The notes under the pieces: model-generated
What the model saw: only the letters and a program-made list of their open reading frames with translations
Database searches by the model: none
Told to the model about the DNA's origin: nothing
Source: Pseudomonadales bacterium
Lineage (GTDB): Bacteria; Pseudomonadota; Gammaproteobacteria; Pseudomonadales; Pseudohongiellaceae
Length of the DNA stretch: 64,000 bases
Reading direction: 5' to 3'
Assembly: GCA_022819645.1 (NCBI GenBank)
Contig: JAJEGU010000022.1
Coordinates: forward strand, 1-64,000
Shown: one piece after another, positions 14,451 to 60,848 of the stretch
Layout: each line of letters starts with the position of its first letter
Numbering within the stretch: the first letter of the stretch is position 1
Position numbers and translations under genes: made by a program

Positions 14451-14510
14451 GGAGCCTGCGCCGTGGATGGGAGCGGATGTACAGCCGTGAATTGCCATGG
14501 CGCAGGCTCC
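14451..14510. repeat. Structured dispersed repeat, copy A (short)
   Basis: This 60-base copy begins GGAGCCTGCGCC and ends GGCGCAGGCTCC, a perfect terminal inverted repeat. Its interior (GAGCGGAT, CAGCCGTGAATT) matches only the right arm of the full-length copies. It starts 15 bases after the fliA stop codon. Confidence 0.85.
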
Positions 14511-14537
14511 TCACTCATGGTCCGTCGCCGGGTTCGT

Positions 14538-14543
14538 TATAAT
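14538..14543 (+). promoter_or_regulatory. ccm operon -10 box
   Basis: A perfect TATAAT stands 33 bases before the ccmA GTG start. The -35 region (TCATGG at 14515-14520 with a 17-base spacer) is poor and lies directly against repeat copy A, so the repeat forms the upstream border of the promoter. Confidence 0.5.
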
Positions 14544-14575
14544 CCGCCCGGATCCTTCCACCGGCATGGCAAGCA

Positions 14576-15220
14576 GTGAGCGTTGAAGCCCAGGACTCCC
14601 ACCCCATGCTTGAAGTCCGCGCACTGAACTGTGAGCGGAATGACCGGCTGCTGTTCCGCGATCTTGCCTTCATCCTCGAAGCCGGCCAGGTGCTGCAGGT
14701 CAAGGGGGGCAACGGCTCGGGCAAGACCACCCTGCTGCGAATCATCTGCGGCCTCAATGACAGTTACAGCGGCGAATTGTTCTGGCATGGCGCCCCGCTT
14801 GGGGAGCAGCGCGACGCGGTTTGCGCCGGACTGCTCTATATCGGCCACCGGGTGGCGGTGAATCGGGTGTTGACGCCGCTGGAAAACCTGCGCTGGAGCA
14901 GCCGCCTGCACCACCCGGCGGACGATGGGCGAATCCGCGAGGCTCTGGGGCAAATCGGCCTTGCCGGCTATGAGGACTCGCCCTGCCATTCGCTTTCGGC
15001 GGGGCAGTACCAGCGGGTTTCCCTGGCCCGGCTGCTCCTGCGCGGCGGCGGGCTGTGGGTGCTCGATGAACCCTTCACCACCCTGGACACCCACGGCGTG
15101 ACCCTGCTGGAGAATCTCGTGAGGCGACACGCCGAAAGCGGCGGCGCGGTGCTGATCACCACGCATCACAAACTCGTCCTGCCCGGCCTGCGCACCCTCA
15201 CCCTGGGAGTCGCCGAATGA
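14576..15220 (+). CDS. ccmA: Heme exporter ATP-binding protein CcmA
   Basis: The 214-residue ABC ATPase powers release of heme-loaded CcmE from the CcmCD complex in System I cytochrome c maturation. It shows Walker A GGNGSGKTTLL, signature LSAGQYQRVSLARL and Walker B LWVLDEPFTTLD. The GTG at 14576 gives the longest product; ATG 14606 (MLEVRALNCE) is a reasonable alternative. It overlaps ccmB by four bases. Confidence 0.95.
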   Translation: MSVEAQDSHPMLEVRALNCERNDRLLFRDLAFILEAGQVLQVKGGNGSGKTTLLRIICGLNDSYSGELFWHGAPLGEQRDAVCAGLLYIGHRVAVNRVLTPLENLRWSSRLHHPADDGRIREALGQIGLAGYEDSPCHSLSAGQYQRVSLARLLLRGGGLWVLDEPFTTLDTHGVTLLENLVRRHAESGGAVLITTHHKLVLPGLRTLTLGVAE

Positions 15221-15900
15221 GCCAGGCAAGCGCCGGCGCCGCATTTCTCGCCACCCTAAAGCGCGATCTGCTGATCAGCCTGAAGCGGCGCAACGATATT
15301 CTCAACCCTTTCATGTTTTTCATCATCGTGGTTTCGCTGTTTCCCATCGGCATCAGCCCGGAGAGCGCCATGCTGCGGCAGATCGCGGCGGGGGTGATCT
15401 GGATTGCCGTGCTGCTCGCCTCGATGCTGTCCATGGACAGCCTGTACCGCTCGGATTATGAAGACGGCACCCTGGAACAGCTTCTGCTCAGTTCAATGCC
15501 ATTGTATCTGCTGGTGTTCGCCAAGAACATCGCCCACTGGCTGGTGAGCGGGTTGCCGGTCATCGTGGTTTCGCCCCTGCTCGCCTACATGCTGGCCCTG
15601 CCGGCGGAAGGCTATCTGACCCTGGTGGCCTCGCTGCTGCTCGGCACGCCGGTGGTGGGCATGCTGGGCTCGATTGCGGTGGCGCTGACCGTGGGCCTCG
15701 GCAGCCGCGGCCTGATACTCGCCGTAATCACCGTGCCCATGAGCGTGCCGGTATTGATTTTCGGCACACTGGCGGTGCAGAACGCCCTTGCCGGCGGCTC
15801 GCCGCTGGGCTATCTCGCCCTGCTCGGCGCCATGCTGGCGCTCACCATCAGCCTTGCGCCGGTGGCGACGGCGGCGGCACTGAGAATTTCGGTGAATTGA
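15217..15900 (+). CDS. ccmB: Heme exporter permease CcmB
   Basis: The 227-residue protein has six hydrophobic segments, as expected for the membrane partner of CcmA. It starts LLISLKRRNDILNPFMFFII and contains the family pattern DSLYRSDYEDGTLEQLLLS. Its start overlaps the ccmA stop (ATGA), so the two are translationally coupled. After its stop the operon is interrupted by about 350 bases holding two repeat copies before ccmC. Confidence 0.95.
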   Translation: MSQASAGAAFLATLKRDLLISLKRRNDILNPFMFFIIVVSLFPIGISPESAMLRQIAAGVIWIAVLLASMLSMDSLYRSDYEDGTLEQLLLSSMPLYLLVFAKNIAHWLVSGLPVIVVSPLLAYMLALPAEGYLTLVASLLLGTPVVGMLGSIAVALTVGLGSRGLILAVITVPMSVPVLIFGTLAVQNALAGGSPLGYLALLGAMLALTISLAPVATAAALRISVN

Positions 15901-15909
15901 GCGTTCCCG

Positions 15910-15963
15910 GGAGCCTGCGCCGCAGGAATTTTCGCTTTCGCGAATTCCTGCGGCGCAGGCTCC
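15910..15963. repeat. Structured dispersed repeat, copy B (solo hairpin)
   Basis: This 54-base copy is almost entirely one palindrome: GGAGCCTGCGCCGCAGGAATT on the left matches the reverse complement on the right, with a short loop TTCGCTTTCGCG. It begins 10 bases after the ccmB stop. It could act as a strong transcript 3' hairpin, but no T run follows. Confidence 0.9.
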
Positions 15964-16060
15964 CAGGTCAGCCGCGGCGAAGTCGAAGATATCGGTAACA
16001 GATTGTAGCCCGCCACCGGCGTGGCGGTGGCTTCGGGTACAATGGCGGCGGGCGTGGCTG

Positions 16061-16221
16061 GGGGCCTGCGCCGCAGGAATTCGCGAAAGCGAAAATTCGC
16101 TATCGCCGCGCCCCTGGCTGGTCGATTGAGGCGAATATTGGTGAATATGCAACGAAATCGAGCGGCCAGGGGCGTGGATGAGAGCGGATTTGCAGCCGTG
16201 AATTCCTACGGCGCAGGCTCC
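16061..16221 (+). repeat. Structured dispersed repeat, copy C (full length)
   Basis: This 161-base copy runs from GGGGCCTGCGCCGCAGG to CCTACGGCGCAGGCTCC. From the outside in it contains the terminal inverted repeat, a small TTCGC-GAAA-GCGAA hairpin, an inner stem CGCCCCTGGC/GCCAGGGGCG extended by TCGATT/AATCGA, and an apical ATATT/AATAT pair. It fills the space between ccmB and ccmC, ending 31 bases before the ccmC start. Confidence 0.92.
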
Positions 16222-16252
16222 TAGGGCTGCGCCATTGATTCATGAGGTAGCT

Positions 16253-17008
16253 ATGGCTGGCAGATGGCAATGGTTTCACCGGCTTGGTTCGCCGAAGTGG
16301 TTTTATGAGAAAACCACCCGCTGGCTGCCCTGGCTGTGGGGCGCCATGGCGCTGTTTCTCACCGTGGGCCTGGTCTGGGCCTTGCTGTTTCTGCCCGAGG
16401 ATTACCAGCAGGGGCATACTTCCCGCATTCTCGTGGTGCATGTGGCGGTTGCCGGCGCTTCCCTGTCCTTTTTCCCGCTGATGGCGGTGGCCGGCGCCGT
16501 CACCCTGGTATGGCGCATGAAGCTGGCCGACATGGTGGCCAGGAATGCGGCGCCGCTCGGGGCCTGGTTTTCCTTCCTGACCCTGGCCACGGGTTCCATC
16601 TGGGGCAGCGTGAGCTGGGGCACCTGGTGGGAATGGACCGACAGCCGACTGGTGTCGATGCTGTTCCAGTTCTTCCTGCTGTTGGGGGTCATTTCCCTGC
16701 GCGCGGCCATCGAGAACACCGAAACCGCCGCCCGGGCCTGTGCCCTGCTGTCCATTGTGGGCTGCATCAATGTGGTGGTCATCAAGTATTCGGTGGACTG
16801 GTGGAATACCCTGCACCAGCCATCGAGCCCGATTTCCATGGAAGTGGGCAGCCCCAATGGCCCCGAGTTCTGGGTCGCCACGGTGGTGATGATCGTGGCG
16901 GTGTACCTGTTTCTGACGGTCAGCCTGATTCTGGCGACCCGTAATGAAATCCTCCAGCGGGAAAGCAAGGCCCGGTGGGTGCGGGAGCTTGCCCTGGAGG
17001 CGCGCTGA
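16253..17008 (+). CDS. ccmC: Heme exporter protein CcmC
   Basis: The 251-residue membrane protein loads heme onto CcmE. The heme-handling tryptophan-rich signature is present as WGTWWEWTDSRLVSML in a periplasmic loop, between conserved histidine-containing segments (RILVVHVAVAG and NTLHQPSS). Six membrane spans are visible. I chose ATG 16253, with GAGG five bases upstream, over the earlier ATG at 16235. The signature has Thr-Asp where the more usual form is WD, a small deviation. Confidence 0.93.
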   Translation: MAGRWQWFHRLGSPKWFYEKTTRWLPWLWGAMALFLTVGLVWALLFLPEDYQQGHTSRILVVHVAVAGASLSFFPLMAVAGAVTLVWRMKLADMVARNAAPLGAWFSFLTLATGSIWGSVSWGTWWEWTDSRLVSMLFQFFLLLGVISLRAAIENTETAARACALLSIVGCINVVVIKYSVDWWNTLHQPSSPISMEVGSPNGPEFWVATVVMIVAVYLFLTVSLILATRNEILQRESKARWVRELALEAR

Positions 17009-17054
17009 TGTGGAGGACATGTTCCTTGATCAGACGTAGTGGCCGCCCAGGGAT

Positions 17055-17086
17055 ATCCTGCGACTACGCTTCGCTTCGCGCAGGAT
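17055..17086. repeat. Short hairpin repeat, second family
   Basis: ATCCTGCG (17055-17062) and CGCAGGAT (17079-17086) flank a GAAGCGAAGC-rich loop on the minus strand. Related imperfect or partial copies occur at 23156, 31217 and 61361 in this window. It lies between ccmC and ccmD. Confidence 0.6.
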
Positions 17087-17132
17087 GACCGGGGAAGGAC
17101 GCGCGGGATGACGGAGCAACGATAGGACAGCC

Positions 17133-17378
17133 ATGCTTGATGGTATACAATTCAACAGCTTGGGCGAATTTCTGTCCATGGGAGGCTATGCCTTCAATGT
17201 GTGGTCTGTTTACGCCCTGTTTGCGATTTTCCTGATAGCGAATCTGGCCCTGCCTTTGCGCAAACGCCGCCGGATTTTGCGGGAACAGCAGCGCAGGCTC
17301 GCGGCTGGCGCGGGGCGGGAGGATGCTGGCGCCACGGACCGCGCCGGCTGGGAAGTGAGTCAGGAGTCTGCGCCGTAG
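17133..17378 (+). CDS. ccmD: Heme exporter protein CcmD
   Basis: The 81-residue protein has the CcmD pattern: a short N-terminus ending [15 protein letters not shown], one membrane span ([13 protein letters not shown]) and a basic cytoplasmic tail ([14 protein letters not shown]). It stabilises the CcmC-CcmE complex and is needed to release holo-CcmE. Its last five codons and stop codon (ESAP-stop) lie inside repeat copy D, so the C-terminal tail has been rewritten by the repeat. Confidence 0.9.
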
Positions 17379-17507
17379 GAATTCGCTATCGCCGCGCCCC
17401 CGGCCGGTCGATTGAGGCGAATATTGGTGAATATGCAACGAAATCGAGCGGCCGGGGGTGTGAACGGGAGCGGATTTGCAGCCGTGAATTCCTGCGGCGC
17501 AGGCTCT
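17363..17507 (+). repeat. Structured dispersed repeat, copy D
   Basis: This 145-base copy overlaps the 3' end of ccmD. It is like the full-length form but lacks 16 bases containing the TTCGC-GAAA-GCGAA hairpin. The inner stem reads CCCCCGGC / GCCGGGGG, changed on both sides compared with copy C, so pairing is kept. The right terminal repeat ends GCAGGCTCTT. Confidence 0.9.
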
Positions 17508-17533
17508 TGGGCCGCCCTGGCTGGAGAAGAGAA

Positions 17534-18004
17534 ATGATGAAGCCGCATCGGCGCAAAAGGCTCGGCATTATCCTGTTCATTGCCGCGGGCCTGAGCGTGG
17601 CTATCGGGCTGACCCTGTTCGCCCTGAGCCAGAACATCAACATGTTCTACTCCCCAACCGCGGTGGCCAATGGCGAAGTGGAAGCGGGCACAATGTTCCG
17701 CATCGGCGGCATGGTGAAGGACGGCTCGGTGGACCAGCGGCAGGACAGCCTCGCGGTGCGCTTCGTCACTACCGATTATGTCCATGATGTGCCCATTGAG
17801 TACGAGGGCATTCTTCCCGACCTGTTTCGCGAAGGGCAGGGCATCGTCGCCGAGGGGCGGCTTGATTCCGCTGGCGTCTTCCAGGCCAGCCGGGTGCTTG
17901 CCAAGCACGACGAAAACTACATGTCGCCCGAGGTCAGGGCCGCCATGGAACAGGCCGGCGCCAGCCCGGAGAATCATCCGTTCAGGGAATCCCCGGAGGA
18001 CTGA
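17534..18004 (+). CDS. ccmE: Cytochrome c maturation heme chaperone CcmE
   Basis: The 156-residue membrane-anchored periplasmic protein binds heme covalently and passes it to CcmF. The heme-binding histidine is H125 in [14 protein letters not shown]. An N-terminal anchor ([20 protein letters not shown]) precedes the OB-fold domain. ATG 17534 follows GAGAAGAGAA. It is separated from ccmD by repeat copy D and followed by ccmF without a gap. Confidence 0.96.
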
Positions 18005-20017
18005 ATGATCCCCGAGTTTGGCCAGTTCTCGCTGATTCTGGCTTTTTGCCTCAGTGTATTGCTCGGAACGCTGCCCCTTGCCGGGGCAGCCACGGGCAAT
18101 GGCCTGTGGATGGGCCTCGGCCGACCCCTGAGCGCCGGCCTTTTCGTTTTTCTCGGCATCTGTCTTTTCATCTTGGGCCACGCCTTCGTCACCGACGATT
18201 TTTCCGTTCGGGTCGTCGCCGCCCAGTCCAATTCCCTGTTGCCCATGCAATACAAGATGACTGCCCTGTGGGGCGGCCACGAGGGCTCCTTCCTGCTATG
18301 GACCTTCATGCTTTCCGGCTGGATTTTTGCCGTGAGCGTATTCAGCGGCAGCATGCCCCGGGAGTTCGTCGCCCGGGTGCTTGGCGTGCTTGGCCTGTTG
18401 TGCGCCAGCTACATCCTGTTCATGCTCGCAACCTCCAATCCCTTCGACCGCATGGCGCCGGTGCCTCCCGCCGATGGCGCGGACCTCAACACCGCCCTGC
18501 AGGACATCGGCTTCATCCTGCATCCGCCGACCCTGTACATGGGCTATGTGGGCTACTCGGTGGTTTTCGCCTTTGCCATCGCCGCCTTGCTCAGCGGTCG
18601 CCTCGACGCCGCCTGGGCGCGCTGGTCGCGGCCCTGGGCCAATGTTTCCTGGGCGATCCTCACCATCGGCATCGCCCTGGGAAGCTGGTGGGCCTACTAC
18701 GAACTCGGCTGGGGCGGGTGGTGGGCCTGGGATCCGGTGGAGAATCCGCCCCTGATCACCTGGCTGTTCGGCGCGGCGCTGATTCATTCCCTGGCGGTTA
18801 CCGAAAAGCGCCGGGTATTCAAGAGCTGGACGGTACTGCTGGCGATTCTGGCCTTTGCCGGCAGCCTGCTCGGCACCTTCATTACCCGCTCCGGCCTGCT
18901 GACTTCGGTGCACGCATTCGCCAGCGACCCTTCCCGGGGCGTGTTCATTCTCGGCATTCTCGGCATATCCGTTGGCGGCGCCCTGCTGCTCTACGCCATC
19001 CGCGCGCCGCTGATCAAGAGCGAATTTGGCTTTGGCTCGCTGTCCCGGGAAGTGTTCCTGCTGGCCAACAACATCATCCTGGTGGTGGCTGCCGCCTCGG
19101 TGTTTCTGGGTACGCTGTTTCCCATGTTTTATCAGGCGCTTACCGGCGACCTGATTTCCATTGGTCCGCCGTACTTCAATCTGATTTTCGTGCCCCTGAT
19201 GATCGTGCTCGTGATGCTGCTCGGCATCGGGCCCATCAGCCGCTGGAAAAAGACCTCGGGCGGTTACCTCAGGCGGCAACTCGGCAAGCTGGCGCTGGCG
19301 AGTCTCGCGCTTGGCGTGGCATTGCCCCTGATCGTGCTGCTTGAGATCTCACTGCCCGCCACCATCGCCGTGGCCCTGGCGCTGTGGATCGTCCTCACCA
19401 TCAGCCGGGACCTGCTGGTGAAAACCGCCAACAAGCCCGGCCGCTGGCAGGGATTGCGTTCGCTGACTTATGGCTATTACGGCATGCAGGGGGCGCATTT
19501 CGGCGTCGCTATCATGCTTGTGGGCGTGGCCCTGACGAGCTGGTTCAGCACGGAAACCAGCGTGTTGCTGCGACCGGGAGAAACCGTGGCCCTCGGCAGT
19601 TACGAGTTTCGTTTCGACGGCAGCGAGCGCATTGCCGGCCCCAATTACCAGGCCGACCGGGCCACGGTGCTCGTGACCCGGGACGGCGCCCCGGTAGCGG
19701 ATCTGTACCCGGAATTGCGCGTGTATCTCGCCAGCGGAACGCCTTCCACCGAAATGGCCATTGACGCGGGATTGATGCGGGACCTCTTCGTCACGCCGGG
19801 AGAGATACGCGACAACGGCGCCTGGACCATGACGGTGTACGTCAAGCCCTTTGTGCGCTGGATCTGGCTCGGCGCGATCATCATGTCCCTTGGCGCCACC
19901 CTGGCGGCGACAGACCGTCGCTATCGCAAGTTGGCCGGTCGGCGTCGGGAATCAGTTGTCGCCGACATTACAGGCGGGCAGGGCAGTCTGCAACCGGCGC
20001 CGGGAGTCAGCCCTTGA
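18005..20017 (+). CDS. ccmF: Cytochrome c heme lyase subunit CcmF
   Basis: The 670-residue polytopic protein joins heme from CcmE to apocytochrome CxxCH motifs. The WWD domain is seen as WGGWWAWDPVENPPLITWL, with further conserved periplasmic segments (GGHEGSFLLW, FILHPPTLYMGYVGYS, LLGTFITRSGLLTSVHAFA). About 15 membrane segments are visible and the length is normal. The start directly follows the ccmE stop, and its end overlaps ccmG by four bases. Confidence 0.96.
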   Translation: MIPEFGQFSLILAFCLSVLLGTLPLAGAATGNGLWMGLGRPLSAGLFVFLGICLFILGHAFVTDDFSVRVVAAQSNSLLPMQYKMTALWGGHEGSFLLWTFMLSGWIFAVSVFSGSMPREFVARVLGVLGLLCASYILFMLATSNPFDRMAPVPPADGADLNTALQDIGFILHPPTLYMGYVGYSVVFAFAIAALLSGRLDAAWARWSRPWANVSWAILTIGIALGSWWAYYELGWGGWWAWDPVENPPLITWLFGAALIHSLAVTEKRRVFKSWTVLLAILAFAGSLLGTFITRSGLLTSVHAFASDPSRGVFILGILGISVGGALLLYAIRAPLIKSEFGFGSLSREVFLLANNIILVVAAASVFLGTLFPMFYQALTGDLISIGPPYFNLIFVPLMIVLVMLLGIGPISRWKKTSGGYLRRQLGKLALASLALGVALPLIVLLEISLPATIAVALALWIVLTISRDLLVKTANKPGRWQGLRSLTYGYYGMQGAHFGVAIMLVGVALTSWFSTETSVLLRPGETVALGSYEFRFDGSERIAGPNYQADRATVLVTRDGAPVADLYPELRVYLASGTPSTEMAIDAGLMRDLFVTPGEIRDNGAWTMTVYVKPFVRWIWLGAIIMSLGATLAATDRRYRKLAGRRRESVVADITGGQGSLQPAPGVSP

Positions 20018-20565
20018 GCAAGTCAGTGCAGAAGCGGATTTTCTTTGTTCCGGTCGCGGCCTTTCTGCTGCTGGTGGTATTTCTCTGGCGGGGCCTGTAT
20101 CTCGACCCCACGGAACTGCCCTCGGTTCTCATCGACAAACCCATGCCGGAGTTTTCCATGACCACGGTGGAGAACCAGCCGGTGGGCAATGTCGACCTGC
20201 CGGAGCAGGTGTTCCTGCTCAATGTCTGGGGCAGTTATTGCCTGCCCTGCCTGGTGGAGCATCCCACCCTGATGCGGCTTTCGGAAGAAGGCGAATTCCC
20301 CGTGGTGGGGGTGAATTACAAGGACCGCCGGCAACTGGCGCTGGACTGGCTCGAACGCAATGGCAATCCCTTCGCCTACAGCATTCTCGATGAAGAAGGC
20401 CGTTTCGGCATTGATTTGGGCGTCTACGGCGCGCCGGAAACCTTTTTAGTGGACGGCGAGGGAGTGATTCGCTATCGCCATGTGGGGGTTCTCGATGAGT
20501 CGGTCTGGCGCGATGTCTTTGCGCCGGCCATCGATGAATTGCGCGATCCTGATCCCAGGCCCTGA
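20014..20565 (+). CDS. ccmG: Thiol:disulfide oxidoreductase CcmG/DsbE
   Basis: The 183-residue protein is a membrane-anchored periplasmic thioredoxin that keeps apocytochrome cysteines reduced for heme attachment. It has an N-terminal anchor (FFVPVAAFLLLVVFLW), the active site WGSYCLPC (C76, C79) and the cis-proline segment GVYGAPETFLVDGEG. Its start overlaps ccmF by ATGA or its equivalent. The SYCLPC sequence differs slightly from the more common SWCVPC. Confidence 0.94.
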   Translation: MSKSVQKRIFFVPVAAFLLLVVFLWRGLYLDPTELPSVLIDKPMPEFSMTTVENQPVGNVDLPEQVFLLNVWGSYCLPCLVEHPTLMRLSEEGEFPVVGVNYKDRRQLALDWLERNGNPFAYSILDEEGRFGIDLGVYGAPETFLVDGEGVIRYRHVGVLDESVWRDVFAPAIDELRDPDPRP

Positions 20566-20593
20566 GTGGCGCAGAGATTGCGCCCGGACTGAC

Positions 20594-22298: not shown

Positions 22299-22331
22299 GC
22301 CCGGTCGTCGCTGTCTGTCCGCCCTTGCCCA

Positions 22332-22949: not shown

Positions 22950-22959
22950 ACTGTCGCTT

Positions 22960-23120
22960 GGAGCCTGCGCCGTAGGAATTCGCGAAAGCGAAAATTCGCT
23001 ATCGCCGCGCCCCCGGCTGGTCGATTGAGGCGAATATTGGTGGATATTCAACGAAATCGAGCGGCCGGGGGCGCGGATGAGAGCGGATTTGCAGCCGTGA
23101 ATTCCTACGGCGCAGGCTCC
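22960..23120 (+). repeat. Structured dispersed repeat, copy E (full length)
   Basis: This 161-base copy has perfect terminal inverted repeats (GGAGCCTGCGCCGTAGGAATTC-type arms). Its inner stem reads CGCCCCCGGC / GCCGGGGGCG: the pair that is T-A in copy C is C-G here, a compensatory change. The 306-base gap 22950-23255 holds this copy, followed by a second-family hairpin repeat near 23156-23200, and nothing else recognisable. Confidence 0.93.
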
Positions 23121-23255
23121 TAGGCCCTTCTTCGCGCGACAAAGCTTCCCGCCCGGTCATTCTGCGCGGAGCGAAGCGCACAGTGAGGAGGCACGCGCAG
23201 AGTGCATAAACCGCTCACTTGTAGTAGCTTCTGTCGCCGATAACGGGATTCCGCC

Positions 23256-24327: not shown

Positions 24328-24394
24328 GAGGATTCATCCCTTTGTCGAAAGTGGCATCCGGAGTGCCCGACCATAAGGCTTGTACATTTCAGTG

Positions 24395-25570: not shown

Positions 25571-25579
25571 AACTTTTCC

Positions 25580-29492: not shown

Positions 29493-30110
29493 ATGCGGAA
29501 CAGACCGAGAGTTATTCTTGTTGGCCTGTTGCTCGCCGGGGCCGCCGGATTCAGCGCGGCGGCTTCCGCCCAGGGGCTGTTTGCGCTAATCGATACCAGC
29601 AAGGGAGTGATGCGGGTCGAACTGAATCATCGCGCGGCGCCCAGCACCGTGGCCAATTTTGTCAATCTCGCCCTGCGCGGTTTTTATGATGGCCTCAGTT
29701 TCCACCGCGTCGAGCGCAATTTCATGGCCCAGGGCGGCGACCCGCTCGGCACCGGCATGGGCGGGCCGGGCTACCGTTTCACCGGCGAGCTGATTCTGAA
29801 GCACAACCAGCCAGGGATACTCTCCATGGCCAATTCCGGCCCGGGAACCGACGGCAGCCAGTTTTTCCTCACCCATGTGGCCACGCCGCATCTGGACGGC
29901 CTCCATTCGGTTTTCGGCAGGGTGGTGGAAGGGCTGACTGTGGTGCGGCAGATTGCCCGCAGGGACCTGATCAACTCGATAATCATCGAGGGCGACCCGG
30001 CGCCGGTCTTTCGCCGCAGGCAGCAGCAGCTTGCGGAATGGAACGCGATTCTCGACCGGGAGTTTCCGAACCTGAAGCCGGCGCCGGAATTCCAGGAGCC
30101 CGCGCCGTAG
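29493..30110 (+). CDS. Periplasmic cyclophilin-type peptidyl-prolyl isomerase
   Basis: The 205-residue protein has a signal peptide (VGLLLAGAAGFSAAASAQ) and a complete cyclophilin domain: FYDGLSFHRVERNFMAQGGD (catalytic Arg), GTDGSQFFLTHVATPHLDG and HSVFGRVVEG. It speeds proline isomerisation during folding in the periplasm. It starts five bases after xthA. The final codons (EPAP-stop) are supplied by repeat copy F, so the natural C-terminus has been replaced or extended. Confidence 0.92.
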   Translation: MRNRPRVILVGLLLAGAAGFSAAASAQGLFALIDTSKGVMRVELNHRAAPSTVANFVNLALRGFYDGLSFHRVERNFMAQGGDPLGTGMGGPGYRFTGELILKHNQPGILSMANSGPGTDGSQFFLTHVATPHLDGLHSVFGRVVEGLTVVRQIARRDLINSIIIEGDPAPVFRRRQQQLAEWNAILDREFPNLKPAPEFQEPAP

Positions 30111-30203
30111 GAATTCACGGCTGCAAATCCGCGCTCATCCACGCTTCAATCGATCAGTCAGGGGCGAATTTTCGCTTTCGCGAATTCCTGTCGCGCAGGC
30201 TCC
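30095..30203 (-). repeat. Structured dispersed repeat, copy F (inverted, internally deleted)
   Basis: This 109-base copy is in the opposite orientation to C, D and E. It keeps both terminal arms, the CACGGCTGCAAATCCGC segment and the GAAA hairpin, but has lost most of the inner stem. It overlaps the last codons of the cyclophilin gene and lies between that gene and the convergent yciB. Confidence 0.85.
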
Positions 30204-51988: not shown

Positions 51989-51992
51989 GCCG

Positions 51993-52934: not shown

Positions 52935-54475
52935 AGACTTTTTCCCTGCAATTCGTTCTGCTGCTGGCGACTATGGCTACGGCTACTGGCGCCGCCGCCC
53001 AGAACTACACCGCATTTGACTTGCAGCGCGGCGACAACTGGGATGATCTGGTTACCGAGGACGTCAACGGCGATGGCCGCGCCGACCTGTTGTTCGCGGA
53101 ATACCGCCCCGGTGTGGGCCGGGAACTGCTGATCCACTATCAACAGGCCGATGGCGGCTTTGCCGCGGAACCCGTCCGGGTGGAAATCAAGAGCGAAATC
53201 ATCGCCATCGGTTTTGCCGACCTGCGCTCCGGGCCGGGCAAGGAGTTGCTGCTGTTTGCCGGAGACGGGGTGTACAGCCTCGCCAGCGGCACGCCGGGCT
53301 ATGCCGGCAATATTCGCCAGCTATTCGCCTGGGAGTTGATCGCCGCCTTGCCGGACAGGGAAAACGTGCAGTTCGTGCGCGACATCGCCGACATCGACGG
53401 CGATGGCCACGTCGACCTGCTCGTGCCGGGAGCTGAAGGCTACGGTTATTTTCGCGGGCTCGGCGATGAGCGCTTTGTACTGGCGGCGATGATTGCAACC
53501 GAAAATCCCGAAGTGCCGCGGTTGGTTCGCGAGAATTTTGAAACCGACCTGGACGTCCGGGCAAGCATCGACGCGGAGCAGGGCATAGTGATCGAATTCC
53601 GCGCGGAAACGCCCACGGCTTTTGGCGACTTCATCGAGCAATGGGATGGCAAGACCGGGCGGGCGCTGTTCGAAGCCCAAAGCTGGATGCCCGGCGCCTT
53701 GTTCGCTGAATTCGATGGCGACGGACTGCCCGACCTGGTCTATGTGAACCAGGGAATCGACGGCCTGGGTCGGCTCAACGTGCATTTCCAGCAAGCCGGC
53801 AACTTCGCCGAAAAACCCGACTGGTCCGGCCCACTCGAAGCCAGGGGCGACTGGCGGCTGGCCCATCTCGACGGCGATGAACAAATCGATCTCATCCAGG
53901 TGGTCGAGCAGGGCGATGATCGGGACATCAGGCTGTATCCGAACCAGGGCGGCGAATTCGATCTGGACAGCCCGGCCCAGGTACTGCGCTTCGGCGGATA
54001 CGATCTGGGGCTGGAAGTGGTCCGGATTCATGGCGAGCCCGTGCTGGCGGCGACCTGGTACGCTGTGCCCGCCATGGAGGCGATCCGCAATACCGGCGTG
54101 CAGCGGGTGAGCCTGCTCTATCGCGGCGCCGAAGGAGCCGATGCGGCGGACGGCCAGTTATTCAACCGCCGTCCCGCCATGCGCCTGGAGGAGACTTTTT
54201 CGGTGGACAATGTGCGGGGGCTGGCCGAGCCCATTCAGTTCGGCCATGACCTCGACGGCGATGGCCGCTCCGACGCGCTCTACGTAACCGGGCGGGGCAC
54301 GCTGGCGGCGCGGCGAATCAATGGGGATTTGCAGATTGAAAGCGAGGATTTCTGGGAATATGTCGCGCCGCGTTCGGTATTCCAGATTGCCGTGGAGCGC
54401 CTGAACGCCGATGAACTGCCCGATTTCGTGCTCCGGCATGGGACATCCACCACGGTGCTGGTGTCGAGCCCATGA
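52931..54475 (+). CDS. Secreted FG-GAP/VCBS repeat protein 1
   Basis: The 514-residue protein has a signal peptide ending ATGAAAQ and five calcium-binding FG-GAP-type motifs beginning near residues 44 (DVNGDGRAD), 154 (DIDGDGHVD), 262 (FDGDGLPD), 314 (LDGDEQID) and 442 (LDGDGRSD). This predicts a beta-propeller exposed in the periplasm or on the surface. No adhesin, enzyme or anchor domain is recognised. It is coupled to the genes before and after by ATGA overlaps. Confidence 0.8.
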   Translation: MKTFSLQFVLLLATMATATGAAAQNYTAFDLQRGDNWDDLVTEDVNGDGRADLLFAEYRPGVGRELLIHYQQADGGFAAEPVRVEIKSEIIAIGFADLRSGPGKELLLFAGDGVYSLASGTPGYAGNIRQLFAWELIAALPDRENVQFVRDIADIDGDGHVDLLVPGAEGYGYFRGLGDERFVLAAMIATENPEVPRLVRENFETDLDVRASIDAEQGIVIEFRAETPTAFGDFIEQWDGKTGRALFEAQSWMPGALFAEFDGDGLPDLVYVNQGIDGLGRLNVHFQQAGNFAEKPDWSGPLEARGDWRLAHLDGDEQIDLIQVVEQGDDRDIRLYPNQGGEFDLDSPAQVLRFGGYDLGLEVVRIHGEPVLAATWYAVPAMEAIRNTGVQRVSLLYRGAEGADAADGQLFNRRPAMRLEETFSVDNVRGLAEPIQFGHDLDGDGRSDALYVTGRGTLAARRINGDLQIESEDFWEYVAPRSVFQIAVERLNADELPDFVLRHGTSTTVLVSSP

Positions 54476-56130
54476 AACGCTGCCTGATTGTCGTGCTGGC
54501 CTGCCTGCCTTGCCTGGCGGGCGCTGATGACTGGGGATTCCGCTCCCAGCCCCTGAGCCTGCCCGCCGAAACCGGAAATCTGGTGCTCGCCGACCTTGAC
54601 GGCGACGCCAGACAGGAAATCATTGCGGTCATCGACGAGGAACTGCGGATTTACCCGCAGGGCGAGCAGGGCTTTGATTTCGACCAGGGCTTTATCAGCC
54701 TGGGCTTCGATGCGCGCTCGGTTGGCTGGGATATTGCCCGGGGCTTCGATTCCGGAGAGACGGCGACGCTCCTCGCCCTGCTCGATGGCAACCGGGTTCT
54801 CGCCTGGCGCCTGCGGGACGGCGCCCTGAGCGAATCGGAAACCCTGCTCAGCGGCGTGAACGGCTTTCTCAGCCCCGGGCTCAACCGCCTGCATTTCGCC
54901 CGGGACATCAATGCCGATGGCCTGATGGACCTGGTAACCCCGGCCCCTGGCGCATTGCATATCCATTTGCGCGAGGCAGAAGGCGCTTTCCGACCGCCGC
55001 TGCCGGTGCAGTCGGATACCCGCCTGCGAACCAATCTCAATTCCCGCAGTCTATTCTGGCGCACGGGTCAGGCGGTGACGATTCCCTCCCTCAGCCTGCG
55101 CGACCTCAACGCCGACCGGCATCCGGACCTGATTTCGGAAACCGATGAATTGCTCGCGGTCTTCCTCGCCGACCCGGAAGCGCCGGGTTACTTCCCGCTC
55201 GCGCCAAGCTACAGTATCGACCTTGCGGAAATCGAGGAGCGTCTCGGCGGATTTGACGTGGACAATCTCGATTTCTCCAACCTCACCGGCATTCTCGCCC
55301 TGACCCACGAGGAGTTGCTGGAAGACGTGGACGGCGACGGCATTGACGATCTGCTGCTACGGGAGGGCGGCAAGATTTCCCTGTTCGCGGGAACCGCCAC
55401 CGGCATGGAGCTGGCGACCCCCCGGCAGGTGCTGCGCTCCGGGGGCAATGTGCTCGGCAGTTTTCTCCACGACGAAGACGGCGACGGTCTCAAGGACCTG
55501 TGGCTCTGGCGGGTGGAATCGATTTCCCTCGGCGATATCTTCCTCTGGCTGGTGCTGTCCAGCGATATTGCCGTGGAAGCGCTGATCTATCCCAACGACG
55601 GCGAACGATTCGCCCGTCGCCCGAGCCGCAGAATCACCGTGTCGCTGCAAATCCCCTCCCTTGTGGGACTGGCCGGCAACTACAGCGAACTGACCGAAGC
55701 CGCCGAGACGACCCGCAGCGCCGACCTGGTTTCATCGGTCACGGCCCGGCTCGACAATGAAGCCGACCCGCTGGACTTGCTGGTCCTGATGGACCGGCAG
55801 TTGCAGGTGTTCTACAACAGCATCGAACCGGAACCCGAACAGCGGGAGTTTCTCGGCTCGCTGGACTACAGCCGCGAACGCGACGACTACCGCATCGACC
55901 TGCGGGCGATGATCAACGACATCAGCATCGGCGAGAACCGGCATCTGCGGGAAGTGGCGGGCCGCGAGCCGGATATCCGCCTTGACGCCGGCCCCGTGGC
56001 GGAGGCCGGCGAAGTGCTCAGCGCCCATCTCAACGACGACGGCATCCACGACATTTTCCTCCTGTCTCGCAATGAAATTGGGAACATAGAGGGTTTGCTG
56101 CTACTCTCGGGTGGCGCGGGCTCCGACTGA
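54472..56130 (+). CDS. Secreted FG-GAP/VCBS repeat protein 2
   Basis: The 552-residue protein has a signal peptide (LIVVLACLPCLAGA) and six FG-GAP-type motifs near residues 41 (DLDGDARQE), 145 (DINADGLMD), 211 (DLNADRHPD), 285 (DVDGDGIDD), 334 (DEDGDGLKD) and 520 (LNDDGIHD). It appears to be a distant relative of the preceding protein, probably arising by duplication. Two of the motifs have lost canonical glycine or aspartate positions. It ends the core ABC/PDZ/FG-GAP block. Confidence 0.8.
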   Translation: MKRCLIVVLACLPCLAGADDWGFRSQPLSLPAETGNLVLADLDGDARQEIIAVIDEELRIYPQGEQGFDFDQGFISLGFDARSVGWDIARGFDSGETATLLALLDGNRVLAWRLRDGALSESETLLSGVNGFLSPGLNRLHFARDINADGLMDLVTPAPGALHIHLREAEGAFRPPLPVQSDTRLRTNLNSRSLFWRTGQAVTIPSLSLRDLNADRHPDLISETDELLAVFLADPEAPGYFPLAPSYSIDLAEIEERLGGFDVDNLDFSNLTGILALTHEELLEDVDGDGIDDLLLREGGKISLFAGTATGMELATPRQVLRSGGNVLGSFLHDEDGDGLKDLWLWRVESISLGDIFLWLVLSSDIAVEALIYPNDGERFARRPSRRITVSLQIPSLVGLAGNYSELTEAAETTRSADLVSSVTARLDNEADPLDLLVLMDRQLQVFYNSIEPEPEQREFLGSLDYSRERDDYRIDLRAMINDISIGENRHLREVAGREPDIRLDAGPVAEAGEVLSAHLNDDGIHDIFLLSRNEIGNIEGLLLLSGGAGSD

Positions 56131-56163
56131 GCCCGGAGTTCATCCCGGAGTAACGGCAATTCC

Positions 56164-56658
56164 GTGAAAAAAGCCGTCTGGATTACTTTTTTTACCGCCC
56201 TGATTCTTGTCAATGCGCTTGCCGAGGCGGCGTACTATTTCGGTGGCGTGCAAATCGCCATGTTCTACCGCCTGACCATGGTGCTCGGCATTACCATCGC
56301 CGCCACGGTATTCGCCGGAACCGCCCTGCTGGTAGGCAAGATGAGCGGCGAGCGCCCGGTATCCGACCGCTTCAGCCCCCGGGAAGTGCTTTCCTGCCTG
56401 AACCAGCGCAGGACCCGGGCCACCGATGTGGCGGTAGCCGGCCTGCTGGGAATCCCTCCGCAAAACCTCGAGCGCATTCTCGGCGCGAAACGCCCCGCGG
56501 CGTCCTGGGTCGTCGCAGCGGCCACCCAACGTCCGGCGGGTTACAGCCAGGGTGAAATCCATCCTGAGTTGTTCCTGAACGAACAGGTGATCCAGACCCC
56601 GGAAGATCTCAGGCAATTCATTTATGATTGCCGCAGGACAAGAGGGGCCCAGCCTTGA
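56164..56658 (+). CDS. Membrane protein of unknown function
   Basis: The 164-residue protein starts at GTG 56164 and has two hydrophobic helices (VWITFFTALILVNALAEAAY; TMVLGITIAATVFAGTALLV) followed by a soluble domain of about 95 residues containing TDVAVAGLLGIPPQNLERIL. I recognise no family. Its stop overlaps the start of the TAXI gene (TTGA), which ties it to the transporter, perhaps as an accessory subunit. Confidence 0.65.
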   Translation: MKKAVWITFFTALILVNALAEAAYYFGGVQIAMFYRLTMVLGITIAATVFAGTALLVGKMSGERPVSDRFSPREVLSCLNQRRTRATDVAVAGLLGIPPQNLERILGAKRPAASWVVAAATQRPAGYSQGEIHPELFLNEQVIQTPEDLRQFIYDCRRTRGAQP

Positions 56659-57710
56659 TCGGACGCGCAGTTCTCATCACCGTATTGGCGGCGGCTTTGA
56701 CCGGCTGCAGCGACGAGCTGAGCCGGGCGCGGCCCTATGTGCTCACCACCGCCACCACCGGCGGCGTGTTTTATCCCGTGGGAGTCGCCATCGCCACCAT
56801 CGCCCACGCCGAATTGTCCGAGTCCGAAAACATTTCCCTGACCGCCATCAGCTCCGCCGGCTCCATGGAGAATCTCAAGCTGTTGCGGGACAACCAGGCC
56901 CAGTTCGCGATTCTGCAGGGGCCTTTCGGCGCCTGGTCCTGGGCCGGGGAAGGGCCGGTACGGGAGCCCCAGACCCATATCCGCTCGGTGAGCGCGCTGT
57001 GGAAGAACGTCGAGCATTTCGTATTGCTGAGCGAACTCGCGACCTCCGGCGACATCATGGACCTGAACAATCTCGACGGGGAACGCTATGTGCTTGGCGC
57101 GCGCAATTCCGGCGCCGAGCAGACCGGGCGCTTCATTCTGGAAACCCTGGGCGTGGACTACGAGAACAGGTTCACCCTGGGCTACATGGGCTACGGCCCC
57201 ACCGTGGGCGCCATCCAGGACGGCAATATCGTCGGCATGAACATTCCCGCCGGCGCGCCGGTAAGTTCCATTACCCGGGCCTACGCCATCATGGGCGAGC
57301 GCATGCGGATTTTGAACTGGTCCCAGCAGGCCCTGGACCAGATCAATGCGCGTTATCCCCTGTGGGACTGGTACGATTTTCCGCCGCTGACCTATCCCAA
57401 TCAGACCGAGCCCGTGCGCACGGTGGCCTCGCCCAATGTGCTGGTGACCCGGGTCGATATTCCCGAAGCGGCGGTGTACCACATCACCCGGGTAATCTGG
57501 GAAAACCTCGCCACCCTGCAGGAAATCCACGGCGCCACCCGCGACATGAGGCCCGAAATCGCCATCGCCGGCCTTGGCGCCCCGCTGCACGCCGGTGCCC
57601 TGCGCTACTACCGGGAGGTGGGCCTGGAAATTCCGGAGCGGTTGCTGCTGGAAGAATCCTCGGCCATGGCGGCGCCCGGTCCCGGCAAGGAGCCTGACGC
57701 CAACCCATGA
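56655..57710 (+). CDS. TAXI-family TRAP transporter solute-binding lipoprotein
   Basis: The 351-residue protein has a lipoprotein signal (TVLAAALTGCSDEL) and the TAXI pattern TATTGGVFYPVGVAIATIAH, AISSAGSMENLKLLRDNQAQ and RNSGAEQTGRFILE. It captures a small organic acid for the permease encoded next. I prefer the TTG at 56655, preceded by GAGGGG and overlapping the upstream stop; a TTG at 56628 would add nine residues. Known TAXI ligands include glutamate and 2-oxoglutarate-type acids, but the ligand here cannot be told. Confidence 0.88.
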   Translation: MIGRAVLITVLAAALTGCSDELSRARPYVLTTATTGGVFYPVGVAIATIAHAELSESENISLTAISSAGSMENLKLLRDNQAQFAILQGPFGAWSWAGEGPVREPQTHIRSVSALWKNVEHFVLLSELATSGDIMDLNNLDGERYVLGARNSGAEQTGRFILETLGVDYENRFTLGYMGYGPTVGAIQDGNIVGMNIPAGAPVSSITRAYAIMGERMRILNWSQQALDQINARYPLWDWYDFPPLTYPNQTEPVRTVASPNVLVTRVDIPEAAVYHITRVIWENLATLQEIHGATRDMRPEIAIAGLGAPLHAGALRYYREVGLEIPERLLLEESSAMAAPGPGKEPDANP

Positions 57711-59710
57711 ATTCCACTCCACTGCGCTGGGCCGCCTTCGCTTTCGCCCTGTTCCATATCTATTGCAATGTGTTCGCAAGCATTTCCGAACTGTGGCTGT
57801 CGGCGATTCATTTTGGCGGTTTTGTCGCCATCTGCGCCCTGCTCGGCAATGAAGATCCGGGGCTGACGCGGCGCTCGCCGGCTTATTGGACCAATATCGG
57901 CCTGGCGCTGCTTGCGGTGTTCGTAGCTGCTTATCTCATCCTGTTCGAGAACGCGCTATACGCCCGGGAGACTGAATTCATCCTTGGCGATTTTGTGTTC
58001 GCATTGATCGCCATCGCCCTGGCCATCGAGTTTACCCGCCGCACCACGGGCTGGTTCATGCCGGTCCTGATCGCTGTCAGCCTTTCCTACATCCTCTTTC
58101 TCGGGCGCTACATCGGCGGGGTATTCGCCTTTCCCGGTCTCAACCTGGAAACCGTGCTCTATCGCAGCTATTTCACCAGCGAAGGCATGTTCGGGCTGAC
58201 CGCGCAAATTTCTTCCACCTTCGTATTCATGTTCATCATCTTCGGCTCCTTCTTGCTCAAGTCCGGCGCCGGGGATTTCATCGTGCGGCTGGCCCAGTGC
58301 CTGGCGGGGCGTTTTACCGGCGGGGCGGGGCTTGTGGCGGTGGTGGGTTCCGGGCTGATGGGCTCGGTGTCGGGTTCGGCGGTGGCGAATACGGTTTCCA
58401 CCGGAGTCATCACGATTCCCATGATGCGCAAGTCGGGTTTTCAGCCGCGCTTTGCCGCAGGGGTCGAGGCGGCTTCTTCCACCGGCGGCGCGCTGATGCC
58501 GCCGGTGATGGGGGCTGGCGCCTTTGTGTTGGCCAGCTATACCCAGATTCCCTATCTCACCGTGATTGGCGCCTCCATGCTGCCCGCGGTGCTGTATTTT
58601 CTGACCGTATCTTTCTTTATCCGCATCGAGGCGAAACGGCTGGGGCTCGCGCCGCAGCTTGCCGCCGACGCCGAAAAAGTTTCCACGGTGCTGCGGGAAG
58701 GCTGGCATTTCATCATTCCCATCGTCACCTTGGTGGCTTTTCTGGTCAGCGGGCGCACCCCCACGACTTCGGCCGCTTTCGCCATCCTCAGCGTAATTGC
58801 GGCCTCGTGGATTTCGCCGCGCCCCATGGGACTCAATGACATCTTCGACGCCGTGGCCAATGGCGTGAAAACCATGGTTTCCACGGCCCTGCTGCTGGTG
58901 GCGGTGGGCATCATCATCAATGTGGTCACCACCACGGGGGTCGGCAACGCCTTTTCGCTGATGATCGCCGATTGGGCCGGCGGCTCGCTGCTGATCACCC
59001 TGTTGCTGGTGGCCCTGGCCTCCCTGGTGCTCGGCATGGGACTGCCGGTGACCGCTTCGTACATCGTGCTTGCCACGCTTTCGGCGCCGCTGATCTTCGA
59101 CCTGATCAGCCAGTCGCAACTGCTGGAAGCCCTGCGGGCCGCCGATCCGCCTTCCAACGTGGCCGCCACCATCGGCCTGTTCGGCGGCGACGCGGCGCTC
59201 GCCCTGCAACAGATGCCATTGGAAATGAAGCAATTGGTCCGCGCCGAAATGCTGCCGGCGGAACTCCTCATGGGCATGCTGCTCAGTGCCCATCTGATCA
59301 TATTCTGGCTATCCCAGGACAGTAATGTCACGCCACCGGTATGTCTGGTATCCTTCGCCGCCGCGGGCATTGCCGGCACCCGGCCCATCGCCACGGGGTT
59401 CACGAGCTGGAAAATCGCCAAGGGGCTGTATCTGATACCCGTGCTGTTCGCCTATTCGCCGCTGATTTCCGGAAGCTGGGCCGAGCGGCTGGAAGTATTC
59501 CTCTGGGCCTGCCCGGGACTGTATGCCCTGGCGGGACTATTGCAATGGCACCTGGAGAAGCCCATCAATGCCATCATCGCCGTATTGCTCGCGCTCAGCG
59601 CGGCCCTGCTGATGTGGATGCCGCTGCCGATCTATTTTCATGCCGCCGGCGCCGCCCTGCTCGCCGGCGTCATCATCTGGCAACATCAGTTCGCCAAAAC
59701 GACCCACTGA
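57707..59710 (+). CDS. TRAP transporter fused permease (4TM/12TM)
   Basis: The 667-residue membrane protein fuses the small (DctQ-like) and large (DctM-like) TRAP permease parts, the form that goes with TAXI receptors. The large part shows GSGLMGSVSGSAVANTVSTG and SSTGGALMPPVMGAGAFVLA, and GMGLPVTASYIVLATL. It overlaps the receptor gene by four bases. Uptake is driven by an ion gradient in the family. Confidence 0.92.
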   Translation: MNSTPLRWAAFAFALFHIYCNVFASISELWLSAIHFGGFVAICALLGNEDPGLTRRSPAYWTNIGLALLAVFVAAYLILFENALYARETEFILGDFVFALIAIALAIEFTRRTTGWFMPVLIAVSLSYILFLGRYIGGVFAFPGLNLETVLYRSYFTSEGMFGLTAQISSTFVFMFIIFGSFLLKSGAGDFIVRLAQCLAGRFTGGAGLVAVVGSGLMGSVSGSAVANTVSTGVITIPMMRKSGFQPRFAAGVEAASSTGGALMPPVMGAGAFVLASYTQIPYLTVIGASMLPAVLYFLTVSFFIRIEAKRLGLAPQLAADAEKVSTVLREGWHFIIPIVTLVAFLVSGRTPTTSAAFAILSVIAASWISPRPMGLNDIFDAVANGVKTMVSTALLLVAVGIIINVVTTTGVGNAFSLMIADWAGGSLLITLLLVALASLVLGMGLPVTASYIVLATLSAPLIFDLISQSQLLEALRAADPPSNVAATIGLFGGDAALALQQMPLEMKQLVRAEMLPAELLMGMLLSAHLIIFWLSQDSNVTPPVCLVSFAAAGIAGTRPIATGFTSWKIAKGLYLIPVLFAYSPLISGSWAERLEVFLWACPGLYALAGLLQWHLEKPINAIIAVLLALSAALLMWMPLPIYFHAAGAALLAGVIIWQHQFAKTTH

Positions 59711-59719
59711 GGAGTAACC

Positions 59720-60730
59720 ATGACTTCCCGCACCGCAAAACAGATTCACCTGATTGAACGACCCGCCGGCATGCCGGGCCACGAACACTTCCAGCTTGTG
59801 GAAGCGGACCTGCCCGAACCGGGCGAGGGCGAGGCCCTGGTGGAAAACCGCTATATGTCGGTTGATCCCTACATGCGCGGTCGCATGCGCGCCGACGCCG
59901 TGTACGCCGCACCGTTTCAACTCAATGCGCCCATGTACGGCGGGGCCGTGGGCGAAGTGGTGGAATCCAGGGACCCGAGCCTGAAGCCGGGGGATATCGT
60001 CCTCAATTTCGCCGCCTGGCAGGACCGGTTCGTGGCCAGGGCTTCCCACCTGCAGCGAATCGAACCCTTCGACCGCGAACGCATCTCGCTCTATCTCGGC
60101 GCCCTGGGCATGCCGGGAATGACGGCCTACGTGGGCCTGCGCAAGTTCGGCGAGCCGAAGGAGGGCGAGACGGTGTTCGTCTCCGCGGCATCCGGAGCGG
60201 TGGGCGCCAATGTCTGCCAGATCGCCAAACAGCAGGGCTGCCGGGTGGTAGGCAGCGTCGGCAGCGACGCCAAGGCCGAGTGGCTCAGGGACGAATGCGG
60301 CGTGGACGCCACCATCAACTACCGCAACTGCGGCAGCCTGACCCGGGCGCTGAGCGCCGCTGCCCCCGATGGTGTCGACGTCTACTTCGAAAACGTCGGC
60401 GGCGACCATCTCCAGGCCGCCATCAATGTCATGAACCCGTTCGGCCGTGTCGTCGCCTGCGGCATGATTTCCGGCTACAACAATTCCGAACCCGTCCCCG
60501 GCCCCAACAACCTCATGTACATCGTCGGCAAGAAACTGCGTATCCAGGGCTTCATCATCTCCGACCACGAAGACATGCGCCCGGACTTCGAAAAAGACAT
60601 GAGCCAATGGATCATTGACGGCAAGATCCGCACCCGGGAAACCGTCTACGAAGGCGTGGAAAACGCCGTAGACGCCTTCCTCGCCCTGTTCTCAGGTGAA
60701 AATTTCGGCAAAATGGTGGTGCGGTTCTGA
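59720..60730 (+). CDS. NADP-dependent oxidoreductase (MDR family, CurA/leukotriene B4 dehydrogenase-like)
   Basis: The 336-residue enzyme has the short zinc-free medium-chain reductase fold: RYMSVDPYMRGRM near the start, LGMPGMTAYVGLRKFGEPKE, the cofactor loop AASGAVGANVCQIAKQQGC, and YFENVGGDHLQAAINVM. It should reduce activated C=C bonds of alkenals or enones using NADPH. It starts nine bases after the TRAP permease gene, so it may share that transcript and act on the imported compound. Confidence 0.9.
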   Translation: MTSRTAKQIHLIERPAGMPGHEHFQLVEADLPEPGEGEALVENRYMSVDPYMRGRMRADAVYAAPFQLNAPMYGGAVGEVVESRDPSLKPGDIVLNFAAWQDRFVARASHLQRIEPFDRERISLYLGALGMPGMTAYVGLRKFGEPKEGETVFVSAASGAVGANVCQIAKQQGCRVVGSVGSDAKAEWLRDECGVDATINYRNCGSLTRALSAAAPDGVDVYFENVGGDHLQAAINVMNPFGRVVACGMISGYNNSEPVPGPNNLMYIVGKKLRIQGFIISDHEDMRPDFEKDMSQWIIDGKIRTRETVYEGVENAVDAFLALFSGENFGKMVVRF

Positions 60731-60827
60731 ATGTGGACAGACACAAATTGAAGCGGCGGAATACCGCGCCCCACTCGGGGAGGGATCCGGAAGCAATACG
60801 ATAGAATGACTCGCAATCACGGGTCCG

Positions 60828-60848
60828 GGAGCCTGCGGCGCAGGCTCC
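60828..60848. repeat. Structured dispersed repeat, copy G (arms only)
   Basis: A 21-base perfect palindrome made of the two terminal arms of the repeat joined with no interior. It lies 97 bases after the oxidoreductase stop and 47 bases before vsr. Confidence 0.75.

Follow-up and report, generated by a model that had tools for sequence, protein, structure and literature searches.

How does a 161-bp repeat without a transposase gene multiply within a bacterial genome, and does the long hairpin that it can form do any work there? These questions are raised by a family of structured repeats in a 64,000-nucleotide stretch of DNA, here called the window, from contig JAJEGU010000022.1 of a Pseudomonadales bacterium (assembly GCA_022819645.1). 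Its genome, G000, has 3.10 Mb in 85 contigs and is 97.7% complete; the window is contig 1. The repeats are firmly identified as a family of miniature inverted-repeat transposable elements (MITEs), each full element being 161 bp of structured sequence with no transposase gene inside. They would be copies of a nonautonomous transposon moved in trans, most likely by an IS1182-family DDE transposase, and an IS1182-type candidate partner is well supported by its ends and protein family matches. A role of the folded + strand at the RNA level is likely, judging from predicted folds and strand biases. The explanation that best accounts for the whole, and that is quite probably right, is an IS1182-mobilized MITE with a conserved hairpin that works as + strand RNA.

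Fold, covariation, and strand

The consensus is predicted to fold as one full-length hairpin, at -125 kcal/mol for the + strand and -110 kcal/mol for the other. The interior is a single long conserved hairpin whose near-invariant tip is a purine-rich internal loop, GAGGC/AACGA, beneath a GAATAT/ATATTC stem-loop; the internal loop could form tandem G.A pairs. An earlier note on this DNA, made from the sequence alone, had described a GAAA-capped hairpin. The corresponding sequence, GCGAAAGC, is present in the left arm, but the small hairpin does not form in the predicted full-length fold. Rfam gives no gathering-level hit within the window; below threshold there are seven matches to microRNA-hairpin models, the best at 57.8 bits versus the 197 needed.

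Evidence that the pairing matters comes from 41 aligned copies, in which 12 pairs show two-sided changes versus 4.1 +/- 1.1 in shuffled alignments, a number reached by none of 500 shuffles. Two-sided changes occupy 40 cells versus 10.3 in shuffles, and 98.1% of cells pair versus 96.9%. When partners are slid by 1-3 columns as a control, at most 3 two-sided pairs appear. Pairing is conserved. The earlier note had pointed to a T-A to C-G change in the inner stem, and this is borne out at pair 55/108, which is T-A in the copy at 16061 and C-G in those at 17363 and 22960, with G.T wobbles also occurring; three window copies alone would prove little on covariation. The copies in the window are as follows.

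14451-14510, + strand: internally deleted copy of 60 bp with both ends retained (sequence and covariance model)
15910-15963, - strand: internally deleted copy of 54 bp with both arms; orientation nearly undecided (48.6 bits for -, 47.8 for +)
16061-16221, + strand: full 161-bp element (sequence and covariance model)
17363-17507, + strand: 145-bp copy without part of the left subterminal stretch (sequence and covariance model)
22960-23120, + strand: full 161-bp element, which served as query; flanks CTT and TAG
23025-23056, + strand: near-invariant hairpin tip of the query copy, TTGAGGCGAATA-N8-TATTCAACGAAA, a pattern also found in other lineages
30095-30203, - strand: internally deleted copy of 109 bp (sequence and covariance model)
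60828-60848, no strand: arms-only remnant of 21 bp (read directly)
4186-4212, + strand: one-arm remnant and eighth copy, absent from the earlier list (repeat family D4)

The other seven copies had been listed before, and direct reading of the window finds each of them; the covariance model recovers six of the seven, with best E values per copy from 1e-39 to 5e-5, and that at 60828 is by reading. The full length of 161 bp holds for 16061-16221 and 22960-23120, and the 145-bp copy at 17363 and the 21-bp form at 60828 fit the MITE-like decay series that had been proposed.

Variants found in one copy and variants shared by at least two behave differently. In the inner stem of the window's genome, private variants break pairing in 34 of 44 cases, whereas 21 of 28 shared variants preserve it (Fisher p = 2e-5); the corresponding counts for the outer arms are 14 of 18 and 14 of 19 (p = 0.003). 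Because shared variants keep pairing and private ones break it, selection acts on multiplying copies and not visibly after insertion, in line with the earlier suggestion of selection for folding during spread.

Several observations bear on which strand is folded. Where an element lies between two codirectional genes, its + strand is the one that runs with them in 36 cases and against them in 14 (p = 0.0026), with 20:7 in the window's genome and 16:7 in others; 50 of 150 copies were informative, and a simple codon score served to predict the genes. For the window's genome, a previous count had given 22:10. The + strand folds more stably in seven of eight representative elements, by 15-29 kcal/mol. 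Among shared one-sided transitions in G000, those leaving a G.T wobble on the + strand exceed those leaving A.C by 23:8 (inner stem 13:5, outer arms 10:3; p = 0.011), compared with 6:11 among private ones. These sums cover the outer arms and inner stem; the middle stretch (positions 23-41), left out of them, gives 3:1 for shared and 2:2 for private variants. Weighted by copies, which are related, shared inner-stem cells stand at 79:13 in the window's genome and 193:32 over 150 copies. Counted by pair, the ratios are 18:4 in the inner stem (p = 0.004) and 10:4 in the outer arms (p = 0.18) for the 150 copies, and 15:5 (p = 0.04) and 11:2 (p = 0.02) for G000. The wobble-pair strand bias is suggestive and partly shown. 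Together with the orientation bias, it points to the + strand as the one that works in single-stranded form, for which RNA is the simplest reading.

In this mechanism, the + strand would act as a folded RNA upon co-transcription with neighboring genes, and copies that do not fold would leave few descendants. As a first guess, the tip could be bound by an RNase or RNA-binding protein of the host, through which a hairpin within an operon becomes tolerable or useful. Some results weigh against a working RNA strand. The copies are related by descent, so that cells are not independent events. The shared-variant bias is weak in larger sets, at 25:18 for 133 congeneric copies (p = 0.36) and 29:20 for all 150 (p = 0.25), and by pair it is not restricted to the inner stem. 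Finally, L356, the remaining one of the eight representatives, shows no strand difference in folding.

A near-invariant tip in other lineages

Searching the whole element against 369 genomes of the class (the window's own among them, with no more than two candidates scored in each) gave short matches in 14 others, nearly all within element positions 59-105. The exact tip pattern TTGAGGCGAATA-N5-10-TATTCAACGAAA occurs in eight of the 369 genomes: 23 times in the window's own, 41 in G352, 27 in G242, and once or twice in each of five others. A reversed control of the pattern gave zero in all listed rows. Related elements were delimited at two loci of one genus (L354 and L355), at L356 in another genus, and on a plasmid of Pseudomonas sp. 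MPC6 (L358). Their ends (such as GGAGGCTGTCSGR...) and stems differ from those of the window element, and their lengths are 161, 160, 162, and 161 bp, respectively, between the ends as assigned; three of the four have CTA on the left, and three have TA on the right. A covariance model of the window's group (R1) nevertheless matches all four end to end, with E values of 5e-12 to 3e-8, and finds nothing else in 14 sources below E 0.06.

Across the eight representatives, the tip reads TTGAGG(C/A)GAATA...TATT(C/T)(A/G)ACGA; in the window's own genus, many copies read ATATG where others read ATATT. A further locus in G242 (L361) is a truncated element with a weak model hit, and a match in G282 (L357) is not an element by the covariance model. 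Pattern scans of viral contigs gave no hits. Nothing was found in plasmids searched with the window element and its core, or in phages and E. coli, which were searched with the related elements only.

These relatives bear on the strongest alternative, in which the repeats are ordinary IS1182 MITEs whose hairpin is kept at the DNA level, by transposition or by palindrome correction (template switching), and has no RNA function. Palindrome correction would create two-sided changes without selection. The outer arms covary too, and the weakness of the shared-variant bias beyond the window's genome is also as this account would have it. However, it fails to predict the co-directional insertion bias, the better folding of the + strand in most representatives, or a near-invariant tip in elements with unrelated stems. 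It is therefore a serious contender, but distinctly less probable than an RNA-level role for the IS1182-mobilized element. A bolder version of that RNA-level role is put forward only tentatively: the elements may constitute a mobile structured RNA class of about 161 nt across Gammaproteobacteria, in which the core and tip are conserved while the IS1182-type ends change, a host or transposon factor recognizes the tip, RNA folding selects which DNA copies spread, and an unusual integration reaction carries donor bases.

Ends, target site, and probable partner transposase

The transposase is proposed to recognize inverted ends of about 19 bp, GGAGCCTGCGCCGNAGGAA, and to insert the element preferentially at C-TA-G, with a net gain of the element plus 2 nt. 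Pairs of orphan arms at a distance of 0.4-5 kb were sought, and seven candidates emerged. One, at L140:3800-5366 in CAR3_bin_20, is a 1567-bp insertion sequence (IS) with CTA/TAG flanks and ends identical to those of the element over 19/19 nt. Its 440-aa open frame matches NCBIfam NF033551 IS1182 at 348 bits versus a cut-off of 270, and carries Pfam DDE_Tnp_1 and DUF772. CAR3_bin_20 thus holds an intact IS1182 IS and element copies together. The other six were judged, from their ends alone, to be pairs of decayed copies. The element's interior does not resemble what internal deletion of the L140 IS would leave.

Traces of similar transposases occur in genomes closer to that of the window. The genome JAJDVS, 91-96% identical to the window's at three aligned loci, contains a broken IS1182 gene (L152; 73% identity over 190 aa); the end of this remnant shares 16 nt with the element and touches a copy with only TA between them. 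G022, G018, and JAJDVS each contain IS1182 transposase fragments of 76-80% identity; the G018 fragment lies at the end of a contig. Plasmid relatives annotated as IS1182, in Halomonas sp. KO116 and as ISKpn6 of Klebsiella, have ends of the type CTAGGAG(T/C)CTGCGCGG(C/T)AG, as does an unannotated Marinobacter plasmid relative (59% amino acid identity). A stricter end search recovered the Halomonas ends again, but not those of two ISKpn6 stretches.

The target site was read from 128 distinct insertions with exact ends (element positions 1 and 161 matched; copies with damaged ends were dropped). Typical flanks are CTA-GGAGCC...GGCTCC-TAG: position -3 is C in 120 of 128 and position +3 is G in 120 of 128, and TA is the commonest flanking dinucleotide (78 left, 76 right). 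The left and right dinucleotides are equal in 70 of the 128 insertions versus 51.6 +/- 3.9 expected if independent. Insertions with a base other than G at +3 all retain G as element base 1 (8/8), and nearly all of those with a base other than C at -3 retain C as base 161 (9/10), which suggests that the outer G and C are part of the element. In seven of 32 copies between same-direction genes, the first base of the element doubles as the final base of the stop codon upstream, which is expected for C-TA-G insertion because TA plus the first G of the element rebuilds TAG. In the window, an arm of copy 30095-30203 supplies the TAG stop of the upstream open reading frame (29493-30110).

Empty sites in related genomes give the size of the insertion. 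Ten are clean and colinear (at least 90% identity, with the span in the other genome free of copies), and the net gain is the element +2 nt in eight, +3 in one, and +4 in one. Nine of these come from 22 joined-flank loci and the tenth (L004) from a separate comparison; the other 13 were dropped for identity below 90%, messy gaps, or another copy, as with L136, whose left alignment spans 34 nt against another copy. The G018 ortholog of the insertion place at 22960 is also empty, at 86% identity and 2 nt shorter. Among the eight net +2 sites, flanks are equal in four (TA, TA, TC, TA) and unequal in four (TA/CA, TA/TG, CA/TA, CA/CG), and in each unequal case one flank is the empty-site dinucleotide and the other differs. 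Mutation after insertion is unlikely as the sole cause of unequal flanks, given that half of these clean sites differ with one flank always matching, and recombination between copies cannot explain colinear empty sites. We infer, short of proof, that insertion sometimes brings along a dinucleotide from the donor.

Some observations sit poorly with an IS1182 partner acting in the usual way. The window's own genome gives no IS1182 match, though its contigs break at repeats. Published IS1182-type elements have 4-bp direct repeats, whereas the gain here is mostly 2 nt. In 58 of 128 insertions the two flanking dinucleotides differ, contrary to what simple duplication of the target would give. IS630-type genes matching DDE_3 (PF13358) exceed the cut-off in G040 (CAR3_bin_20, which holds L140) and G041 (CAR3_bin_15).

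The last point concerns a different partner, an IS630/Tc1-mariner transposase moving a MITE like RUP or Correia into TA within CTAG. IS630 reportedly prefers TA in CTAG, to go by a title of Tenzen and Ohtsubo 1991 in a reference list, and TA within CTAG is the preference seen here. An IS630-type element is expected to duplicate TA; here TA is favored, with 58 of 128 flank pairs unequal. In the passages of PMC2170065 compared, IS630-family ISY100 inserts at TA with normal duplication in 34/39 products. DDE_3 has no match in the element-bearing congeners G000, G018, and G022, and in eight other metagenome-assembled genomes (MAGs) reached through element or arm hits it exceeds the cut-off in two of eight, with G044 below it. 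The IS with identical ends belongs to IS1182, and an IS630 origin is very unlikely. Least likely of all is a REPIN/BIME moved by a RAYT (Y1) transposase, as the earlier note had considered: each arm consists of GGAG and then a short hairpin, as in REPs, but Y1_Tnp (PF01797) is absent from the same three genomes, though present in 26 of 38 searched, and the IS with identical ends is of the IS1182 family.

Transposase genes of the window's genome were also considered as partners for the IS1182-like ends and rejected: 7 of 12 DDE_Tnp_1 matches were examined, and none is flanked by matching ends. A short element remnant (18319-18384) adjoins a DDE_Tnp_1 gene in L225. In the window, the open reading frame at 43-1776 has a DDE_Tnp_1 match (41.6 bits at 967-1629), and no end pair resembling the element ends was found near it.

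Distribution, neighbors, and known systems

A first BLAST search found at least 83 matches on both strands from 40 scored of 250 genome candidates, so the repeats are not chance. A profile search of 2.23 Mb of the 3.10-Mb genome then gave 142 hits, of which 80 span both ends, or an estimated 200 copies or so per genome by scaling up. Among 38 genomes searched, 25 of them from the genus (own included in both), the element matches only G000, G018, and G022, all of that genus; two of the 24 congeners therefore carry it. A 20-base end pattern found at least 94 stretches in GTDB contigs. Among the matches listed are the MAGs Pseudomonadales jk18x, Gammaproteobacteria CAR3, jk18x22, and Candidatus Rariloculus; a single contig from Latescibacterota also matched, as did some coding sequences by chance. 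End-to-end copies with diverged stems occur in CAR3_bin_2, CAR3_bin_15, CAR3_bin_20, and Rariloculus MAGs, so that relatives do extend to other gammaproteobacterial MAGs. Hits in two Aromatoleum species, Hyphomicrobium, and an Acidobacteria MAG were judged to be chance, with no second arm within 60 bases on either side.

Copies vary in arrangement. Tandem copies separated by two bases occur (L135), and L121 holds an ortholog of copy 30095-30203 with a different internal deletion. At an element in L013 (G000) and L031 (G018), the left flank is identical and the right flanks differ, which suggests rearrangement between copies. Rariloculus loci L114, L116, and L154 have a 30-nt extra stretch (AATCGCCGTCTTCGGCGAGGCGTTTCGCCC) at one left-arm place in four copies. 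A palindrome like GGGAAGCTCTGATTAAGTCAGAGCTTCCC, possibly a second repeat family, adjoins the element at L043, L047, L112, and L118. Another repeat, CATTCTGCGCGGAGCGAAGCGCA-like, lies at window positions 23157-23190 and near 17060-17090 and recurs in the flanks of several loci; to all appearances it is unrelated to the 161-bp element.

Three copies between window positions 15900 and 17534 sit among genes of one apparent operon, presumably for cytochrome c maturation (ccmB, ccmC, and ccmE, named from context), and may be co-transcribed with these genes, to judge from their placement. The genes on either side of 16061-16221 are putatively ccmB and ccmC. Elsewhere in the window, a 33-nt coding motif repeated at 53060-55356 reads like D-x-N/D-G-D-G-x-x-D-L and is presumably an FG-GAP/VCBS or calcium-binding type repeat; seven of the eight copies of repeat family D2 fall in this interval.

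The earlier note recognized no named family. Rfam agrees, as described above, and the end sequence GGAGCCTGCGCCG was not found in the literature searched, which covers few subscription papers, so absence in print is not implied. IS1182-type MITEs as such, however, are already in print: MITEPye1 (PMC11578231) and the ISMac2 MITEs (PMC3852290). MITEPye1 of Paracoccus yeei is likewise short, intergenic, and without a transposase, with IS1182-like terminal repeats and a long predicted RNA stem-loop. It has 4-bp direct repeats and 1-3 chromosomal copies, in contrast to the net 2-nt gain, often unequal flanks, and much larger estimated copy number here, and the parts of PMC11578231 compared describe no conserved tip or covariation. 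The ISMac2-derived MITEs of Methanosarcina acetivorans, likened by description and not by sequence, are 160 and 169 bp with inverted repeats of 26 and 25 bp (table columns as interpreted) and have an IS1182 partner; their host is archaeal, and the listed direct repeats are 4 and 0 (PMC3852290). IS1272, whose transposase is of the IS1182 family, as is the putative partner here, replaces target inverted repeats without duplication (PMC5678879), whereas empty sites of the present element show insertion, mostly with a net gain of 2 nt. ISKpn6 and its Halomonas and Marinobacter plasmid relatives have CTAG-flanked ends, GGAG(T/C)CTGCGCGG(C/T)AG, near those of the element, but are autonomous, with transposases 52-60% identical to that of L140.

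Other small repeats resemble the element more loosely. ERIC, RUP, and Correia/NEMIS are also 100-200 bp with TA at their ends and transcripts that fold into long hairpins, and for ERIC and NEMIS, effects of the RNA on neighboring mRNAs have been reported or proposed; these elements belong to other organisms and have other named partners (RUP: IS630-Spn1), and are set apart by description, not alignment (PMC2229807). MITEPsy1 of Pseudomonas syringae, perhaps of IS5 type, is a MITE that also prefers CTAG, but has ends GGAAGGTC..., a length of 100 nt, and a 4-nt duplication (PMC3189936). Intergenic repeats of Pseudomonas fluorescens such as R6, at 177 bp, are similar in size and hairpin by description alone (PMC2718517), and R6 is a possible relative of the Pseudomonas plasmid element. 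Judged by its ends and partner, the present element is an IS1182-type MITE; it integrates in a variant manner, and its conserved folded core amounts to more than a leftover of deletion.

Bacterial MITEs are usually taken as passive deletion remnants in which a hairpin is a by-product of inverted ends. Here, a hairpin core is kept between element families with diverged ends and stems, at near-fixed length and with a near-invariant unpaired tip. Comparing private with shared variants tells apart selection that acts as copies spread and selection that acts once they are inserted, and the approach is usable on other MITEs. The conserved core makes a long-standing question testable, namely whether MITE hairpins work as RNA.

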